Source: an uncultured Chloroflexales bacterium (GTDB taxonomy: Bacteria > Chloroflexota > Chloroflexia > Chloroflexales > Chloroflexaceae). Taken from it: DNA of 64,000 bases. The first letter of the stretch is position 1, and every line of letters starts with the position of its first letter. A model generated the notes under the pieces. That model had not been told where the DNA came from. It searched no databases and was given only the letters and a program-made list of their open reading frames with translations. Shown one piece after another: positions 1,995 through 48,438 of this stretch. A program made the translations under genes and the position numbers. The stretch lies in the NCBI GenBank assembly GCA_937918935.1, contig CAKZSI010000028.1:62001-126000 (forward strand), written 5' to 3'.

Positions 1995-3146
1995 TCAGGG
2001 GCGCGCCATGGCACGCCCCTGACATGCTGTTACAACCACCATCTCAGCCGAAATGGCATGCATGCACTCCGGACCGGTGGTGCCCCGTGGGCAGCGATTG
2101 ATGCTATGGCACGGGCTGCAGACCAACCCGGCCCGCAACACCCGATGGCGCCCCGGGTCGCCCCACGGCCCAAACCGCCCCGGATCGGTAGGGCCAAAGA
2201 GGTGCACCGTCGGCGCCCCCTGGCTCACGGCAAGATGCAACGGCCCGCTATCAACCCCCAGCACCAGGTCGGCCCGCGCGAAGAGGGCCGCCAGTTCGCC
2301 GATACGGGTCGCGCCCACCAGTTCCAGCGGTTGATGGCGCATGGCGCTGGCTACCTGGCGCACCAGGCCCTCCTCCCCGGGGCCGCCGGTCAGCAGCACC
2401 CGCGCGCCGGGGCGCGCCGCCAGGGTGTCACCCACGACTGCCCAGCGTTCAGCCGGCCAGAGCTTGGTCACTCCTCCGCTCCCTGGATGGATAATCGCCA
2501 GACGTTCGGTGGGAGCAAGGTGGGCCGCGATCCAGGCGTCGGCCCAGGCCCGTTCGGCGGGGGTGGGCGCGAAACGCAGCGGCGGGGTTCCAGGATAAGC
2601 GGGTAGCGTCACACCGGTGAGCCGGGCCACCACGTCGAGCGATTGCCGGGTCACGTGTTTGTGCCCTTCGAAGGGCAGCGCCTCGCTGAGCAGCGGCGCG
2701 CACAGGGGACAGGCATGGCCGATGCGCCGGGGGATACCCGCCAGCAGCGCCAGCAGCGCCCCCCACCAGTGATCGTCGCGGAGGATCAACGCGGCGTCGT
2801 AGCCTTCGCGGCGCAGCAACGCCGCGTAACGCAGCAGCATCAGGTAAGGTTGCAGGGGGTTGGGCCGGCGCGCGGTGTCGCGTTCAAAGCCGGGAAAGGG
2901 CAATTCACCCAGTGTATCCACCTCGGGGAGACCCTGCCACATCCGCCGGGACCAGGGGCCGACCAGGGCGCCGATGTGGGCCTCGGGCAGCGCAGTGCGG
3001 AGGGCCTGAAGGGCCGGTGTCGCCAGCAGCAGGTCGCCGAGGTGGTCAGGCTTGATCACTAACACACGGCGCGGCAGGCCAGGGTTGGCTCGTCGCGTCC
3101 ATGGCCGCGCAAGGAGCGCCAGCAGGCGCAGGAAGATCAGCTTCAT
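1995..3146 (-). CDS. Glycosyltransferase family 9 (heptosyltransferase-like)
   Basis: A 383-residue cytoplasmic GT-B enzyme of the ADP-heptose:LPS heptosyltransferase type. The N-terminal Rossmann half begins at about residue 28 with VLVIKPDHLGDLLLATPAL, the family hallmark. The C-terminal half has the nucleotide-sugar site IHPGSGGVTKLWP and GVDSGPLHLAVSQGAP, then GPTDPGRFGPWG. Because Chloroflexales lack classical LPS, the acceptor is probably another surface polysaccharide or glycoconjugate (inference). On this strand the CpXC gene lies directly upstream; the two seem to have been 6 nt apart before a 160-bp element inserted between them. The ATG has no good Shine-Dalgarno, consistent with former translational coupling. 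Confidence 0.9.
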   Translation of the reverse strand: MKLIFLRLLALLARPWTRRANPGLPRRVLVIKPDHLGDLLLATPALQALRTALPEAHIGALVGPWSRRMWQGLPEVDTLGELPFPGFERDTARRPNPLQPYLMLLRYAALLRREGYDAALILRDDHWWGALLALLAGIPRRIGHACPLCAPLLSEALPFEGHKHVTRQSLDVVARLTGVTLPAYPGTPPLRFAPTPAERAWADAWIAAHLAPTERLAIIHPGSGGVTKLWPAERWAVVGDTLAARPGARVLLTGGPGEEGLVRQVASAMRHQPLELVGATRIGELAALFARADLVLGVDSGPLHLAVSQGAPTVHLFGPTDPGRFGPWGDPGRHRVLRAGLVCSPCHSINRCPRGTTGPECMHAISAEMVVVTACQGRAMARP

Positions 3147-3149
3147 ACC

Positions 3150-3329
3150 CGCTTAGAACCAATACGGTTCACATACGCGCGTTGCTCCCTCCCAACCCTC
3201 TCCCGCCGGGGAAGGAACCGCGCTCCTCCCCCCAGCGGGGGGAGGCTGGGAGGGGGGCCCCCCAATGGGGGTTGGGAGGGGGGCCGTGCCGTGAGCCTTG
3301 TCGTATTTGCAAGGTATTGCGCTTAGAAC
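3150..3329. mobile_element. MITE-like element with 18-bp TIRs and 10-bp target duplication
   Basis: The element proper is 3160-3319 (160 bp). Its left end CAATACGGTTCACATACG (3160-3177) and right end CGTATTTGCAAGGTATTG (3302-3319) are imperfect inverted repeats (14 of 18 positions). Outside them lies a perfect direct repeat, CGCTTAGAAC, at 3150-3159 and 3320-3329, which is what a target-site duplication looks like. The interior is a GC-rich, self-complementary string of C and G runs with no reading frame. Removing the element and one repeat restores a 6-nt spacing between the CpXC stop codon (inside the right repeat) and the GT9 start codon. Confidence 0.8.
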
Positions 3330-4630
3330 AGCATCGCCCCGGCCTCGCGGGCGAGTTGCCGCAGGCGTTCGGCCCCCGCGGAGTTGGCGCGCCGCTCTTC
3401 CTGGGTGGCCAGTTCATTGAGCTTCTTAACGAGCTCGGGCGTGATTTTCGCCACGTTCTTGCGGAGCAGGGCCGTGGCTTCCTTCGGCGTCTCAGCGAGG
3501 AGCAGTTCGTTGATGAAACGCTCTTCGGGGGAGAGCCGGCTCTGAATGATCTCAACTGCCGCTGCGGCGAGTTGTTCCAGACGCCGCGCCAGGTCCTCGC
3601 GTCCGGAGCGCTGGGCGGCTGCGGCATTGGCCGAGAGGGCGATCAAGAATCCATCGTCCACCTGGTCGGCCCGGGCGTGGAGCGCAGCGAGCGGGTCGGG
3701 CGCTTCGAGCACCTCGGCGAGCAGGGCGTTGCCCGCCTCGAACAGCGCCTGCGCCTCGCGGTCCAGTTCCTCCACCAGGGCCAGGATGCGCGCGCGGCGC
3801 CCGGTCAGGCGGTCAGCCTCCTCGGTCTGTCCGGCGGCCTGCGCCGCCTCGATGCGCTCCGTCCATGCCTGGAAGAAGCCATAGTCAATCACCGGCCGCA
3901 ATTCGGTCACGGCCTCTTCAAGCTGATCATCGGGAACGCTCAGCAGCCGTTCGAGGGCCTGGCGCACCTCTTCGGCGCCGGCCTCGGCCCCGGCTTCGCC
4001 CACCAGTTCGTTGAGGCGTTCATGCACCTCGAGCAGTAACTCACGCGAATCAGCCTGCGAGTCGGGCACAGCTTGAATGAACGCTTCGAGAGTGGCGAAG
4101 AACTCCGGGGTCAACTCGGCGCGACGTTCGGCAACCAGGGCGTTGAAACGCTCTTCATCCTTCACGACGGTGGCCAGTTCGCTGATCAGATCGACGTAGG
4201 CCCGCTGGCGTTCCAGGGTCTCACGGCTGACGCCATCGGCTTCGAGAATGGCATCGAGCAGCGAAGGCAGCGTGAGGAAGCGACGCGGGGCCAGCAGGTA
4301 GGCCCGCGGAGCATCGGCCGGCAGCGAGCGGATCAAGAAACTGGTCGCCTCGCCGATGAAGCGCTCTTGCTCCTCCGGGCGGGCGTTCAATTCCTGGGGA
4401 AAGTAGACCAGGCAGAGTTGCTTGCGCGCGTCGTGGTAGATCAACGGCGCGCCGAGCATAGCCCCCGTGCCACAGTTCGGACAGACGGCCACGTTAAGCT
4501 GGCCGCTGAGCAGGGCTACCTTGAGGGCAGGCTGATCGGTGGCGTCGACCAGGGTGTAGATATTCGCGCGAAAGGGGGTGCCACAGGCGGGGCAGGTGAT
4601 CTGAACGGGCTGAGGGGCAACGGCAGGCAT
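3323..4630 (-). CDS. CpXC-domain protein, mostly helical, function unknown
   Basis: The first third carries a CpXC-type zinc-ribbon domain: paired knuckles ITCPACGTPF and VAVCPNCGTG within the first 65 residues, followed by LCLVYFPQ. The remaining ~300 residues are charged and helical, with repeated ERFI/LLLAE segments near the C-terminus. I chose the ATG at 4630 (435 aa) rather than a longer frame to 4678 because GGGAGAG sits 5-6 nt upstream and the protein then starts MPAVAPQPVQITCPACG. CpXC proteins are common in Chloroflexota and Firmicutes but have no assigned biochemistry. Its stop codon lies inside the right target duplication of the adjacent MITE. Confidence 0.82.
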   Translation of the reverse strand: MPAVAPQPVQITCPACGTPFRANIYTLVDATDQPALKVALLSGQLNVAVCPNCGTGAMLGAPLIYHDARKQLCLVYFPQELNARPEEQERFIGEATSFLIRSLPADAPRAYLLAPRRFLTLPSLLDAILEADGVSRETLERQRAYVDLISELATVVKDEERFNALVAERRAELTPEFFATLEAFIQAVPDSQADSRELLLEVHERLNELVGEAGAEAGAEEVRQALERLLSVPDDQLEEAVTELRPVIDYGFFQAWTERIEAAQAAGQTEEADRLTGRRARILALVEELDREAQALFEAGNALLAEVLEAPDPLAALHARADQVDDGFLIALSANAAAAQRSGREDLARRLEQLAAAAVEIIQSRLSPEERFINELLLAETPKEATALLRKNVAKITPELVKKLNELATQEERRANSAGAERLRQLAREAGAMLF

Positions 4631-4922
4631 ACACTCTCTCCCTGAGGCGAAGGGCAGCAGGCAGACCGCTCCACTCACTGGCCCCGCATATGCTTCTACG
4701 GCCAGAGGCGCGGGAAAATCCGGTTTCCCGGCACCACTTCAACTGGCGATATTCACATCCGCAACGCTGTGGTGATTATAACAAACCCTTTGTGATCGTG
4801 TGCAGAGCTTTCATCGTCTCCAGGGCCGATGCTAACATGTGTCGCCGGTGAGGGATTGCGGTATGCCCCGCGGACTCTGCACCAACCCTGGCAACCCGGC
4901 CAACCTCACAAAACGGGAGGGG
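4631..4922. other. Intergenic region with a type-B palindrome
   Basis: It holds one member of the dispersed GGGAAA-n-TTTCCC palindrome family (about 4711-4729). The remainder looks non-coding. It probably carries the promoter of the CpXC gene, but I cannot identify a convincing -35/-10 pair. Confidence 0.45.
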
Positions 4923-5552
4923 CTATCTGGCGCGGCCGATGACCGCGTAGAGCGGATCGCTGAGCCAGCGGCGCGGCGAGCGGTCAAGGAAGCGAATGTC
5001 GGTGAAACATTCGGCCAGTTGAAAATAGCGTTGCACCAACTGGCCGTGTTGCCGGTCGCCGGTCGAAACCCAGATCCGCACCGCCTTGCTGGGGAAACAC
5101 CGGTTCGAGAAGGTGACGATGAATGGCGCGCCGGGGTGCAGCACACGCCCCACCTCGGCGAAGACGGCGACCGGATGGACCAGGTATTGCACCGAGACGG
5201 TACAGGCGGCCCCGTCGAACGAGGCATCGGCAAAGGGCAGCGTGGGGTTCTGGTTCAGGTCATGAACCAGGTATTCGTCAAGTTGCGGGTTGAGCCGCAG
5301 TTCCTCGGCGTTCAACCCCAGACCCACCACACGGTCGTAGCGCACCTCTGGCGGGAGATGGCTAACATAGCTGCTCATCAGGTCGAGGATGCGGCCCCCT
5401 GGGGGCAGTTCCTCGCGGAACAACCGGGTCACAGCGGCGCAGGCGGCCTCATCAATATGCGCCGTCAGCCGGGGATAGGTGTAAAAGAGGCGATCATCGC
5501 TCTCATCGTAGCGCACAAAATAACTTCGGGGAAGCTGATTCTCCCGGCGCAC
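4923..5552 (-). CDS. Class I SAM-dependent methyltransferase
   Basis: A 209-residue protein with a methyltransferase-11-like core. Motif I is degenerate (GGRILDLMSSYVSHLP, Asp in DLM), motif II is VVGLGLNAEEL, motif IV is LPFADASFDGAACTVSVQYL, and post-motif GRVLHPGAPFIVTFSNRCF closes the fold. The substrate cannot be inferred. The N-terminus (RRENQLPRSYFVRYDESDDRLFYTYPR) fits a conserved cyanobacterial/Chloroflexi subgroup of small-molecule methyltransferases. It stands alone between two intergenic regions, transcribed toward the CpXC gene. Confidence 0.85.
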   Translation of the reverse strand: MRRENQLPRSYFVRYDESDDRLFYTYPRLTAHIDEAACAAVTRLFREELPPGGRILDLMSSYVSHLPPEVRYDRVVGLGLNAEELRLNPQLDEYLVHDLNQNPTLPFADASFDGAACTVSVQYLVHPVAVFAEVGRVLHPGAPFIVTFSNRCFPSKAVRIWVSTGDRQHGQLVQRYFQLAECFTDIRFLDRSPRRWLSDPLYAVIGRAR

Positions 5553-6983: not shown

Positions 6984-7067
6984 GATCTTGTGGGGGCCGC
7001 ATGCCCCCAACCCTCGCCGAGACGAAGTTTTGTTACAACAGCAATCGCCATTGCATCGGGAGCGCGT

Positions 7068-8468
7068 ATGCGGGTTGTGATGAAGTTCGGCGGCACGTCG
7101 GTCGGCAGCGCCGACGCCATCCGCCAGGTGGCCAGGATCGTGGCCGAGAGCCGCCGCGAGCACGAGGTGGTGGTCGTGGTGTCGGCAATGAACGCCCCGG
7201 ATCTGCGTACAACCGACACCCTGATCGCCGCCGCGCGCGCCGCCGCCGAGGGTGACGGCGAGGCGACCGCCATGGCCGCGCCGCGGTTGCTTGACCTGCA
7301 CATGCAGGTCGCCGCCGAGCTGGTCAGCGCCGAGGAGCGCGAGGCCCTGGCCCCCGAACTGCAAGCCATGCTCGACTACATGAGCGACCTGTCGCGGAGC
7401 ATTGCAGTGCTCGGCGAATTGACCCCGCGCGCCCTCGACCTGTTCAGCGGCCTCGGCGAGCGCCTCAACGCCCGCCTGATCGCCGCTGCGCTGCGGAGCG
7501 CCGGTGTCCCGGCCCAGGCCGTGGATGCCACCGGGCTGATCATCACCGATGAACGCTACGGCGCCGCCTCGCCGCTGATGGCCGAAACCCGCGAGCGTTC
7601 ACGCGAGCGCCTCCTGCCCCTGCTGGCCGAGGGGGTCGTACCGGTCGTCACCGGCTTTATCGGCGCCACGCGGGCCGGCGTGCCCACCACCCTGGGGCGC
7701 GGCGGCTCTGACTATTCCTGCGCCATTCTCGGCGCGACCCTCGACGCCGACGAGGTCTGGTTCTGGAAAGAAGTTGACGGGGTGCTTACCACCAACCCGA
7801 AGGTAGTGCCGGAGGCCCGCACCCTGCCGCGCCTGACTTACAGCGAGATGGCCGAACTGGCCTATTACGGGGCCAATGTGCTGCATCCCAAGACGGTGCT
7901 GCCACTGGTGCAACGGCGCATTCCCATCCGCATCCGCAACACCTTCAACCCCGATCATCCCGGCACCCTGATCAGCGCCGAGGAGAGCACCGGGGCAGCC
8001 AAGGCGGTAACGGCGATCAAGGACGTGAGCCTGATCACCGTGGGCGGGCCGGGCATGCTCGGCGTCGCGGGGGTTGCCGCGCGCATCTTCGGGGCCGTGG
8101 CCCGCGCCGGGGCCAATATCCTGCTCATCTCCCAGGCCAGCAGCGAACAGAGCGTCTGTCTGGCCGTGCCGCGCGCCGAGGCCCCCGCGGCGGTAGCCGA
8201 ACTGCGCCACGAACTCGCCAGCGAGTTCTCGGCCCACGATGTTGAACACATTGATGTGCAGGACCCGGTGGTGATTGTCGCCCTGGTTGGCTCGGGCATG
8301 CGCGGCACGCCGGGGATCGCCGGGCGCCTCTTTGGCGCGATGGGCGCAGCCGGCATCAATGTCATCGCCATCGCCCAGGGCAGCACCGAGAACAACATCT
8401 CGCTCGTCGTAGCCGCAGAGGAGGGCGACCGGGCCGTGCGGGTCATTCATCAGAGCTTTGAGTTGTAA
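7068..8468 (+). CDS. lysC: Aspartate kinase
   Basis: A 466-residue monofunctional aspartokinase, the first step of the Lys/Met/Thr pathway (ATP + L-aspartate to aspartyl phosphate). KFGGTSVGSADAI opens the amino-acid kinase domain. GRGGSDYSCAILGATLDAD and FWKEVDGVLTTNP hold the nucleotide and aspartate sites, followed by AELAYYGANVLHPKT. Two C-terminal ACT-type regions (about 310-466: LITVGGPGMLGVAGVAARIF, VALVGSGMRGTPGIAGRLF, NNISLVV) indicate feedback regulation by an end-product amino acid. The ATG at 7068 has GGGAG upstream and gives the normal N-terminus MRVVMKFGG. No homoserine dehydrogenase domain is attached. Confidence 0.96.
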   Translation: MRVVMKFGGTSVGSADAIRQVARIVAESRREHEVVVVVSAMNAPDLRTTDTLIAAARAAAEGDGEATAMAAPRLLDLHMQVAAELVSAEEREALAPELQAMLDYMSDLSRSIAVLGELTPRALDLFSGLGERLNARLIAAALRSAGVPAQAVDATGLIITDERYGAASPLMAETRERSRERLLPLLAEGVVPVVTGFIGATRAGVPTTLGRGGSDYSCAILGATLDADEVWFWKEVDGVLTTNPKVVPEARTLPRLTYSEMAELAYYGANVLHPKTVLPLVQRRIPIRIRNTFNPDHPGTLISAEESTGAAKAVTAIKDVSLITVGGPGMLGVAGVAARIFGAVARAGANILLISQASSEQSVCLAVPRAEAPAAVAELRHELASEFSAHDVEHIDVQDPVVIVALVGSGMRGTPGIAGRLFGAMGAAGINVIAIAQGSTENNISLVVAAEEGDRAVRVIHQSFEL

Positions 8469-8537: not shown

Positions 8538-8556
8538 AGCGACATCCTTAGCAGCC

Positions 8557-8687
8557 GGTAAACAACGTCTTTCGCTGAACCCCGGCCCCCTCCCCAATCC
8601 CCCCCGCTGGGAGAGGGAGTCCGGCGCCTCCCCGCAACGGGGGGAGGTTGGGAGGAGGGGCGGAAAGGCAAGCAAACTTCGTTTACC
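8557..8687. repeat. Hairpin-type repeat with GGTAAAC / GTTTACC ends
   Basis: Left end GGTAAACAACGTCTTTC (8557-8573) and right end terminating GTTTACC (8681-8687) share a perfect 7-bp terminal inverted repeat plus scattered further matches. The interior is filled with C-run/G-run blocks much like the MITE at 3160-3319. No target duplication is evident. It may be a third, divergent member of the same class of elements. Confidence 0.45.
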
Positions 8688-8738
8688 GACCACTTAGTTT
8701 CATCTGATGGTGTGTGGCGCAGCCGAGGGATGCGTGGA

Positions 8739-9896
8739 ATGAAAATCGCTATCTTCACCGAAACCTTTCTGCCCAAAATCGACGGCGTGGTGACGATTCT
8801 GTGCCAGGCGCTGGAACGCCTGCAGGAGAAGGGCCATCAGGTATTGCTCTTCGGGCCGCCGGGGGGGCCGAAGGAGTATGCCGGGGCTGAGATCGTGGGC
8901 GTGGGAGGGCCGCCGTTGCCCTTCTACCCCGAATTACGCATCAATATCCCCCGGCGCTTCGTCTGGGAGCGGGTACGCAGCTTCCAGCCCGACCTGGTGC
9001 ACATCGTCGCTCCGTTTTTCCTCGGACCGTTTGGCCTCTCGTATGCGCGCCGCCTGAACGTGCCGATCCTGGCCTCCTTCCACACCCACGTGCCGCGCTA
9101 CGTGCGCCACTACGGCGGCGCGTTCATCGAGCCGGTCGTCTGGTCGTACCTCCGCACGTTGCACAATCAGGCGCACCTCAACCTCTGCCCGAGCACTGAA
9201 ACGCTCAAAGATCTGCGCCACCACGGCTTCGAGCGGGTGCGCTGGTGGAAGCGCGGTATTGACACGCAACGCTTCAGCCCCGGCCCGCGCGACCCTGCGG
9301 TGCGCGAGCGGTTGAGCGGCGGGCGCCCCGACGAGTTGCTGGTAGTGTACGTGGGCCGCCTCTCGCCGGAGAAGCGCCTGGAGACCATCCGCGACCCGCT
9401 GTTCAGCGTGCCGGGCGTGCGCCTGGCGATGGTTGGCGGCGGTCCCAGCGAAGAGCAACTCAAGCGTCATTTCCGCGGCACCGCGACTACCTTCCCCGGC
9501 TATTTGCGCGGCAACGATCTGGTGGCGGCCTACCGAGCCGCCGATGTGTTTCTGTTCCCTTCCACCACCGAGACCTTTGGCCTGGTGGCCCTGGAAGCGA
9601 TGGCCTGCGGTGTGCCGGTGATTGCCGCTAATGCCGGCGGCGTGCTCGATATTATTACCCATGGGGAAAACGGGTTGCTCTTCGACCCCGAGCGCCCCGA
9701 ACAGATCGGCACCCTGGTGGGGCGTCTGAAGGACGATCCGGATCTGCGGCACGGGCTGGCTCAGCGTGGTGTGCTTCACGCCCGCGGGCGTTCCTGGCAG
9801 GCCACGATGGACCAGTTAATCGAGTACTATCGCCTGGCGACGCGGGTGTTTCAATGTTCGCAGGCGCGTCGCCGGCGCCTGGCGGGTGCTATGTAG
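8739..9896 (+). CDS. GT4-family glycosyltransferase (mannosyl/glucosyltransferase-like)
   Basis: A 386-residue GT-B enzyme. The N-terminus MKIAIFTETFLPKIDGV and the segment SFHTHVPRYVRHYGG are typical of the GDP-mannose-dependent / MgtA-like lipid glycosyltransferases. The C-terminal domain has VYVGRLSPEKRLE, MVGGGPSEEQLK and the catalytic EX7E segment FPSTTETFGLVALEAMACG. It probably glycosylates a membrane diacylglycerol or phosphatidylinositol-like lipid facing the cytoplasm (inference from family). Starts at 8730 and 8739 are both possible; 8739 gives the canonical N-terminus. It is separated from lysC by repeats, so it is likely a separate transcription unit. Confidence 0.9.
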   Translation: MKIAIFTETFLPKIDGVVTILCQALERLQEKGHQVLLFGPPGGPKEYAGAEIVGVGGPPLPFYPELRINIPRRFVWERVRSFQPDLVHIVAPFFLGPFGLSYARRLNVPILASFHTHVPRYVRHYGGAFIEPVVWSYLRTLHNQAHLNLCPSTETLKDLRHHGFERVRWWKRGIDTQRFSPGPRDPAVRERLSGGRPDELLVVYVGRLSPEKRLETIRDPLFSVPGVRLAMVGGGPSEEQLKRHFRGTATTFPGYLRGNDLVAAYRAADVFLFPSTTETFGLVALEAMACGVPVIAANAGGVLDIITHGENGLLFDPERPEQIGTLVGRLKDDPDLRHGLAQRGVLHARGRSWQATMDQLIEYYRLATRVFQCSQARRRRLAGAM

Positions 9897-46908: not shown

Positions 46909-47319
46909 TGTTCACGTACCTTGAACCGAGACTTCCTACCGGGCAGCACCCGCATCGCGGGCAGCGGCGCAACACGTCGAGAAGGCTCATTACCGCGTGT
47001 CTGCGTGCCAATCTTCCAGGCGATCTGTTCGAGCATCATAGGACGCCGGCCATTCCTACGCCGGCTCATTCAAAATCAAAGCTCCACAGTCCAGAATCGT
47101 CCTGGGCGCAATACGTTTCACCTACGCGCGTTGCCCCCTGTCACACCTCCCTTGCTGGGGGAGGGCTTCCGGCTCCGCTCCCCGTTGAGCGGTCAGGAGG
47201 CATACCGACGGCTCGCCAGCGGGTACCCGCCGCGTGTAGCCGTGCTCCTCCCTCCAGCGGGGGGGGGGGCGGAAGGGGGGCCATGCCGTGAGCCCTGGCT
47301 TATGTGCAAGGTATTGGTC
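46909..47319. mobile_element. Intergenic region with second MITE-like element (47109-47316)
   Basis: CAATACGTTTCACCTACG (47109-47126) and CTTATGTGCAAGGTATTG (47299-47316) match the ends of the element at 3160-3319. Both copies start CGCGTTGC inside and end with TGCCGTGAGCC before the right terminus. Flanks GTCCTGGGCG (47099-47108) and GTCCTAGGTC (47317-47326) agree at 7 of 10 positions, as a decayed target duplication would. The 208-bp element has a longer interior than copy 1. The part 46909-47098 shows nothing coding. Confidence 0.65.
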
Positions 47320-48438
47320 CTAGGTCTCGCGCTCGCTCGTCGCCTGTGACCTGTCTCCCGTAGCGCGATCGTTCCGGCCCGGCGTCTGATCGTACAGATA
47401 GACCTGCTGGGTCGGATAAATAATGTCAATCTCCTCGGCGCGGAAACGCTCAATCAGCGCCAGGTTGATCGCATGCTGAACATCCATGTACACCTGAAAC
47501 TCTGGCGAGAGCACGAAGTAAACGACTTCATAGACCAGATCATACGCATCAATCCGGGCCAGATGGGCCCGGTCGAAGCGCACCTGCTCCTGGGTCTCGA
47601 TGATCGAACGGATGATGCCCGGAATGGCCCGCAGGGTGTCAATGCCGGTTTCATACGAAACACCGATCGAAAAAACGATCCGTCGCTCCTGCATCCGCCC
47701 GAAGTTGCGAATACGGCTCCCCAGCAGGTCGGTATTCGAGAAGATCAACTGCTCGCCCGAAACACTGCGCACGCGGGTGGTTTTCAGGCCGATCTCTTCG
47801 ACCGTCCCCGTTTCGCTCCCCACACTGATGAAGTCGCCCACGACAAACGGCTTGTCAAGCGCGATGGAGAGCGAAGCAAAGAGATCGCCGAGGATGTTCT
47901 GCACCGCCAGGGCGATGGCGATGCCGCCAATGCCGACACTGGCCAGCAGGGCCGTCACCTCGACGCCGGGAATGTTATCGAGGATGAGCAAAAAGAGCAG
48001 CACGTAGAGCGCCAGCCGGGCGACGAAACCGAACAGCCGGGCCGTGCCGGCGGCGGCCGGGTCCTGCTGGCGGGCCTCGTAGCGCGCCATCCAGCGGGCG
48101 ATCAGCGTGTTGCCCCAGATGCCCAGTTGCACCAGGAAGAGGATGATCGCCCCGGCGCGGAGGAAGGCTTTGACCCGCGGATCGAAGGCCAGCGTCAGGC
48201 TGCCGGCGTAAAGGGCCAGCAAGAACACGATGGGCTGCGCCGTGGTTCGGGTTACCGCGTGGCCTATGTCGTCAAGGATGACGTTGGTGATCGGCGGGCC
48301 GAAACGCAGGCGCCGGCTGAAGATCCAGCGCCCGATGGCGAAGCCAAGCAGCACGAGGACCACAGCCAGCAGCGCCAGCAACCAGCGCAGCAGCGTATTG
48401 CCGAGGATCACCTGGTCGAGGAGAGGGAAATCAGGCAT
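47320..48438 (-). CDS. MscS-family mechanosensitive channel
   Basis: A 372-residue membrane protein. Four or five TM segments lie in the first ~190 residues (LLRWLLALLAVVLVLLGFAIGRWIF; QPIVFLLALYAGSLTLAF; AGAIILFLVQLGIWGNTLIARWM; LALYVLLFLLILDNI). The pore helix is VTALLASVGIGGIAIALAVQNILGDLFASL, followed by the beta domain with PFVVGDFISVGSETGTVEEIGLKTTRVRS and FSNTDLLGSRIRNFGR. The C-terminal alpha/beta vestibule contains RAHLARIDAYDLVYEVVYFV. It opens on osmotic downshift to release solutes. The start at 48438 begins MPDFPLLDQVILG. Confidence 0.94.
   Translation of the reverse strand: MPDFPLLDQVILGNTLLRWLLALLAVVLVLLGFAIGRWIFSRRLRFGPPITNVILDDIGHAVTRTTAQPIVFLLALYAGSLTLAFDPRVKAFLRAGAIILFLVQLGIWGNTLIARWMARYEARQQDPAAAGTARLFGFVARLALYVLLFLLILDNIPGVEVTALLASVGIGGIAIALAVQNILGDLFASLSIALDKPFVVGDFISVGSETGTVEEIGLKTTRVRSVSGEQLIFSNTDLLGSRIRNFGRMQERRIVFSIGVSYETGIDTLRAIPGIIRSIIETQEQVRFDRAHLARIDAYDLVYEVVYFVLSPEFQVYMDVQHAINLALIERFRAEEIDIIYPTQQVYLYDQTPGRNDRATGDRSQATSERET

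Follow-up and report, generated by a model that had tools for sequence, protein, structure and literature searches.

A GT9 glycosyltransferase gene and a gene with a CpXC domain lie next to each other on the minus strand near the start of the window, i.e. the whole 64-kb stretch of DNA that was analysed (Table 1). The CpXC gene is the upstream partner of the pair. The two genes are separated by a short element, spanning positions 3160 to 3319, whose 160 bp leave no room for a transposase gene. As a consequence of this layout, 176 nt lie between the CpXC stop codon and the ATG of GT9 (3144-3146). When the element and one of its two flanking repeats are removed in silico, the gap shrinks to 6 nt; the same value had been given in a preliminary description of this DNA and was obtained again upon recomputation.

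Table 1. Positions of the genes and repeat features in the window
Feature	Position	Strand	Remarks
GT9 glycosyltransferase gene, downstream partner	1995-3146	-	PF01075, E 5.5e-33
Left target-duplication copy, CGCTTAGAAC	3150-3159		exact repeat
Left terminal inverted repeat, CAATACGGTTCACATACG	3160-3177	+	14/18 vs other end; common to sibling copies
GC-rich double-hairpin core	3187-3280		inverted arms; common to second repeat family
Right terminal inverted repeat, CAATACCTTGCAAATACG	3302-3319	- (read on minus strand)	14/18 vs left end
Right target-duplication copy, CGCTTAGAAC	3320-3329		exact repeat; contains CpXC stop codon (3323-3325)
CpXC-domain gene, upstream partner	3323-4678	-	PF14353, E 4.5e-23
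Family-2 copy, 141 bp, TAGTCTGTAAA-type ends	8552-8692		7 mismatches over both ends
Second CAATAC-family copy, 208 bp	47109-47316		flanks GTCCTGGGCG / GTCCTAGGTC, 7/10

The preliminary description had recognized 18-nt imperfect inverted repeats at the two ends of the element and an exact direct repeat on both sides. Both observations hold at the positions given: the inverted repeats match at 14 of 18 positions and the two 10-bp copies of the direct repeat are identical. An exact 10-bp repeat (copies 80-330 bp apart) around inverted ends that agree at 14 or more of 18 positions is found at this sole place in the window; 50 windows randomized by shuffling 2-base blocks inside 4-kb blocks contain none. 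Bacterial MITEs are gene-less elements of 70-300 bp with paired inverted repeats, and with its 160 bp, its 14/18 ends and the absence of a gene the element conforms to this description.

The state of the locus before the insertion can be read from close relatives. With window positions 2700-3900 as query, the locus was retrieved from four other genomes of the genus (five including its own). In all four, the CpXC gene adjoins GT9 and the MITE is absent. The gap between the CpXC stop and the GT9 ATG amounts to 6 nt in G002, G003 and G004 and to 0 nt in G001. In the former three the two halves of the query meet within a few bases, and in G001 the alignment of the GT9 half begins deeper in the gene. 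Two further contigs, JAOACN010000359 (Chloroflexaceae SKW209) and CAKZKA010000080, show junctions as in G003 and G004 and were left out of the count of independent empty sites; in JAAXUL010000402 the gap is 3 nt. More widely, 13 of the 38 GT9 loci found were read by eye, and the end of a CpXC gene lies upstream of GT9 in 11 of them and is absent in two. Because the genus relatives have empty sites and CpXC is commonly found upstream of GT9, the genome of the window most simply represents the derived state, in which the MITE would have been inserted after the split from G003 (DNA identity of 92% and 89% on either side of the insertion). The recent insertion proposed in the preliminary description thus agrees with the empty state kept in the closest relatives.

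Three of the 11 loci with CpXC upstream (L065, L069 and L072) have a longer spacer between the two genes. In L069, from an uncultured Chloroflexus, a perfect palindrome, GTAGAGACGTTGCA..TGCAACGTCTCTAC, occupies the junction and immediately precedes the GT9 match at 5001. Judging from this palindrome, the CpXC-GT9 junction seems to have been struck in another lineage too, by a repeat of a different kind. The spacers of L065 and L072 are long and repetitive.

The terminal repeats of the window MITE recur elsewhere in its genome. At up to three mismatches, the end consensus gives 20 + 20 matches, against a single match for the reversed-pattern control. Both ends are present in 17 copies of 120-275 bp (window MITE included), and further copies are truncated or degenerate. 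This group is referred to here as the CAATAC family or family 1. The ten bases on either side of a copy match at eight or more positions in 12 of the 17 copies, whereas only 1.8% of 272 mismatched pairings of left and right flanks reach this level. Likewise, the mean flank identity is 7.65/10 for the true copies and 4.08 for the mismatched pairs, and none of 10,000 permutations attains the observed value. The remaining flanks are weaker: four copies match at 2-6 of the ten positions and one at seven. One of these four, the copy at C22:21342, has flanks that score 3/10 and align after a shift of one base. Similar proportions are seen in two other genomes, where 30 loci were taken per genome: flanks matching at eight or more positions surround 11 of 14 copies in G051 and 15 of 18 in G029. 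Taken as a whole, the preliminary description was right in what it observed and is supported in how it interpreted the locus, the relatives having empty sites and the sibling copies having independent duplications.

The family is unevenly spread over the order. The end pattern (up to two mismatches) occurs in 45 of 61 genomes, many of which contain just one to three matches and do not rise above the reversed control. At least 20 end matches are present in 14 of the 61, the own genome included, with controls of at most three (G000, G001, G007, G011, G014, G015, G022, G026, G027, G029, G035, G051, G057 and G060). The highest counts are those of G026 (290), G051 (215) and G035 (181). The copies of about 102 bp in G026 and of about 136 bp in G051 are very numerous, similar and short, and several contigs among the matches listed for these two genomes end near or inside copies.

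The duplicated targets have a sequence preference. Taking the commonest base at each position, the target consensus of the own genome reads GNNYTARNNC (Y = C/T, R = A/G). The central YTAR occupies flank positions 4-7 in 19 of 34 flanks of the own genome, 18 of 28 in G051 and 26 of 36 in G029, compared with a background of 0.11% of window positions (69 sites in the GC-rich 64 kb). At the CpXC-GT9 junction, the target on the minus (coding) strand is GTTCTAAGCG, which contains the TAA stop codon of CpXC. Because the duplication spans this stop codon, CpXC has retained its stop and its C-terminus despite the insertion. The second copy of the window, at 47109-47316, has a comparable position: the TAG of its target serves ORF 47320-48438(-) as stop codon, and we take this ORF, from reading alone, to be a mechanosensitive channel gene.

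A predicted in-frame stop is located at the target centre in 8 of the 17 own copies (seven exactly, one shifted by one base), compared with 16 of 90 non-coding YTAR sites in the background (Fisher P 0.02, binomial P 0.005); these counts come from a simple purpose-made gene caller, and the window background includes the duplications of both window copies. A tally by hand with a looser rule gave a higher count. The corresponding numbers are 3 of 14 copies in G051 and 2 of 18 in G029, and the pooled Fisher P is 0.10. A general preference for stop codons was rejected on account of these low counts and the pooled test. The signal being weak when pooled, the excess of stop codons is mostly what is expected from the target motif together with selection against insertions in genes.

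A candidate parent with full-length structure was found in another genus. Starting from a long pair of ends, a degenerate 1482-bp copy with a 9/10 duplication was reached in G027 (C602), and from there an intact element in G005 (C32). The latter also measures 1482 bp, has identical ends (CAATACCATTCAAATAAG), is bordered by a perfect 10-bp duplication (TCTTTACGAC) and encodes an intact transposase of 483 aa. Its ends match those of the window MITE at 14-15 of 18 positions, and the resemblance is confined to about the outer 18 bp. The transposase belongs to the IS4 family and is recognized by the curated transposase models NF033592 (2e-58, 198 bits with a cut-off of 115), PF13006 (4.6e-20, 72 vs a cut-off of 25) and PF01609 (1.3e-13, 52 vs 23). 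The catalytic residues are D160, D236 and E343, and the spacers of 75 and 106 residues fit the spacing D(60-110)D(100-150)E that is given for IS4-family transposases in PMC2266710. The Y(2)R(3)E(6)K motif is incomplete: Y336, R339 and E343 are present, and the Lys is replaced by Ala (A350). In three proteins examined from G047 and G050 this position is an Asp, and one of them also has His for Arg, whereas the Lys is intact in the YREK motif of E. coli IS4. With a motif that reads YRE(A/D), and once His for Arg, one published hallmark of the IS4 family is therefore lacking.

Relatives of 1598-1612 bp, in G047 and G050 (two genomes from another family of the order), share 46-47% of the transposase residues, and the E. 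coli IS4 transposase shares 26%. When the 18 terminal positions are compared, E. coli IS4 agrees with the other elements at 10-15 of them. The full-length elements have 10-bp duplications with TA-centred targets, e.g. TCTTTACGAC, GTTCTAAAGC and GGGTTAAACG among others. Moreover, the exact IS end CAATACCATTCAAATAAG occurs in G029 (C92:123349) as one member of an inverted pair about 106 bp apart. The preliminary description had proposed a search for a full-length IS with the same ends and duplications in the genome itself. An element with related ends and a perfect 10-bp duplication was found, albeit in the other genus, and none was detected in the own genome: searches with a piece of the transposase and with a five-sequence profile gave no IS4-type transposase in this genome or in the four other genomes of the genus. 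The three genomes with the most ends (G026, G051 and G035) gave either no match or one short and weak match, and no intact IS4-type transposase; no autonomous partner appeared among the matches listed within G026, G029 and G051. Beyond G005, G027, G047, G050 and the E. coli IS4 yardstick, the other loci from the transposase searches showed no convincing combination of ends and duplication.

In the light of these findings, the segment 3160-3319 is very probably a non-autonomous DNA transposon (MITE) that was moved by an IS4-type DDE transposase supplied from elsewhere. The transposase would be that of an IS of the G005 type or of a close relative. By analogy with what is known of cut-and-paste transposition by DDE transposases, the enzyme would act in trans: it would bind the 18-bp ends, excise the MITE and insert it into a 10-bp target with staggered cuts and YTAR at its centre. 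At the CpXC-GT9 junction the 10-bp duplication rebuilt the TAA stop of CpXC, leaving this gene intact while the gap to the start of GT9 widened from 6 to 176 nt.

The ends of the MITE could instead be served by a transposase of a different family, with the IS4 likeness of the outer 18 bp being partly fortuitous. Such an arrangement would explain why the most MITE-rich genomes have no detectable IS4-type partner, and the likeness does span only some 18 bp. Nevertheless, the MITE and the full-length elements concur in end sequence, duplication length and TA-centred target, and the MITE-type end in G029 equals the IS end at 18/18 positions. A different transposase family is hence improbable, and the assignment to an IS4-type enzyme is preferred.

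The interior of the MITE has its own distribution. It consists of a core with two sets of inverted arms (3187-3211/3230-3254 and 3187-3198/3269-3280), and the RNA fold of the whole element is more stable than that of shuffled sequences on the minus strand (z -4.6) as well as on the plus strand (z -4.3). Matches to the core also occur at places without CAATAC ends. Out of 16 core loci of the own genome that were read by eye, 13 have at least one TAGTCTG-like end, one (L005) has a CAATAC-type end and two (L002 and L014) have neither. The TAGTCTG-like ends define a second repeat family, family 2, whose end TAGTCTGTAAASNNRGTTT gives 72 + 67 matches in the own genome at up to three mismatches (control: 2 + 1). 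From 30 loci taken, 24 two-ended copies were obtained. Their duplication signal is 5 bp long and located directly at the ends (65% identity vs 38%, z 5.4); it emerged from 80 combinations of length and offset, of which three others above z 4 contain the 5-bp one. The family-2 copy in the window (8552-8692) has a perfect 5-bp duplication, CTTAG, and lies between ORFs 6990-8468 and 8712-9896.

A match between the window MITE and a family-2 element covers positions 3191-3258 (90% over 70 bp, 88.7 bits), well above 38.3 bits, the top score when nine family-1 elements were compared with 1000 dinucleotide shuffles made from five family-2 elements. Real pairs of the two families match in 36 of 45 cases, some of which do not exceed 38.3 bits. 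In comparisons with 17 family-1 elements, the two end modules of the window MITE match over 18-38 nt in the best rows; with 25 family-2 elements they match over at most 8 nt. The middle, by contrast, matches both families, and the top match is a family-2 element (71.9 vs 58.0 bits). Since the ends match family 1 only while the middle matches both, there is, at the level of sequence, one core in two shells: CAATAC ends with a 10-bp duplication, and TAGTCTGTAAA ends with a 5-bp duplication signal. As the ends and the duplication lengths differ, the two families are probably served by unrelated transposases.

Some loci depart from both shells. L002, L014, L187 and L188 contain the GC-rich core with neither set of ends, and the CGGCGTCCGCCGGGAACGG-like flank that L002 and L014 have in common suggests a third repeat family carrying the core. 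Conversely, L235, L238 and L244 of G029 have CAATAC-family ends around different interiors, with palindromes of the GACGCAAAGGCGCAAAGG or AGACCTGTGAGGTCT type, which suggests that the interiors are interchangeable.

It could be argued that the GC-rich double hairpin is itself the mobile unit, in the manner of REP elements, and that the CAATAC ends are an acquired decoration. It would fit that the core recurs in the TAGTCTGTAAA shell with its 5-bp signal and in one or more other contexts. However, the 10-bp duplication directly abuts the CAATAC ends, the empty site lacks both shell and core, and the three G029 copies that were read hold other interiors within the same ends. A hairpin moving on its own is accordingly a very remote prospect. 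Weaker still, and barely credible, is the view of the segment as an immobile, structured intergenic part of the CpXC-GT9 operon itself, an attenuator or terminator. The very stable fold speaks for it, but it is contradicted by the empty sites in four other genomes of the genus and by siblings at unrelated loci with duplications of their own. A terminator or native regulatory element was also rejected because no terminator-like site was found inside the MITE and no Rfam family reached its gathering score in 2900-3600. A scan for promoters of the sigma-70 type found none in the MITE.

With an inserted MITE as the preferred reading, its effect on GT9 can be considered. No ribosome-binding site is visible right before GT9, as the preliminary description had remarked, and by eye the empty-site relatives likewise have none before their GT9. 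That description had also regarded the insertion as the break of a coupled gene pair. This stands for the gene layout (from 6 to 176 nt); for the function, the lost adjacency, the lack of an evident ribosome-binding site and the stable hairpin together argue that GT9 would have lost its translational coupling. Expression of GT9 would now have to pass through a very stable hairpin or take place in spite of it.

Among known systems, the IS4 subgroup is closest; De Palmenaer et al. (2008, PMC2266710) give it the end pattern -AATR--------WTW (their Table 1) and direct repeats of 10-13 bp. Both ends of the MITE fit this pattern (CAATA at 1-5 and ATA at 14-16) and its 10-bp duplication falls inside this range. 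The full-length relatives measure 1482-1612 bp, and the two that were scanned both have Nterm_IS4 and DDE domains. E. coli IS4 differs by its TAATGCC ends and 12-bp duplication, and the window MITE by being gene-less. In Bacillus cereus, MIC231 and other IS231-derived mobile cassettes are non-autonomous IS4-family derivatives that are moved in trans, and they are longer than the window MITE. They also differ from it in subgroup, ends and host phylum. Cassettes of the MIC231 type are called modular in the title of a reference in PMC2266710. The bacterial MITEs RUP, NEMIS, Nezha and ERIC have other ends and other hosts. Such MITEs are described in PMC3733652 as non-coding elements of 70-300 bp with ends of 15-30 bp, and on this description they resemble the window MITE in size, ends, strong secondary structure and gene-adjacent position. 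The same source reports GTAG-tagged REPs of 20-40 bp in Chloroflexi, among others, whose termini often supply a TAG stop. As described there, they are similar in being dispersed palindromes near gene ends, whereas in the window MITE the terminal repeats are paired, the target is duplicated, and it is this target, not the element, that supplies the stop. No report of the CAATAC family was found among the matches listed (e.g. the best 10 of 461 and 12 of 95), ISfinder and most subscription journals lying outside the scope of this search. The CAATAC family would be a new family of a well-known type, the IS-derived bacterial MITE. The unexpected part is the core that is common to two shells.

The locus is a clear example of adjacent genes recently parted by a gene-less element, with the empty state kept in the closest relatives. 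The three richest genomes, with no intact partner transposase detected, raise the question of what drives such bursts. The core in two shells offers a concrete system for the birth of MITEs and the exchange of their ends. Tentatively, and with slightly less than even confidence, the same core in two MITE families may be an interchangeable module that repeatedly gains new mobile ends or lets MITEs trade ends, and the YTAR target may make stop codons ready landing sites that are repaired by the duplication. If this is true, the non-coding palindrome could lose any single transposase and still survive, by swapping its shell.
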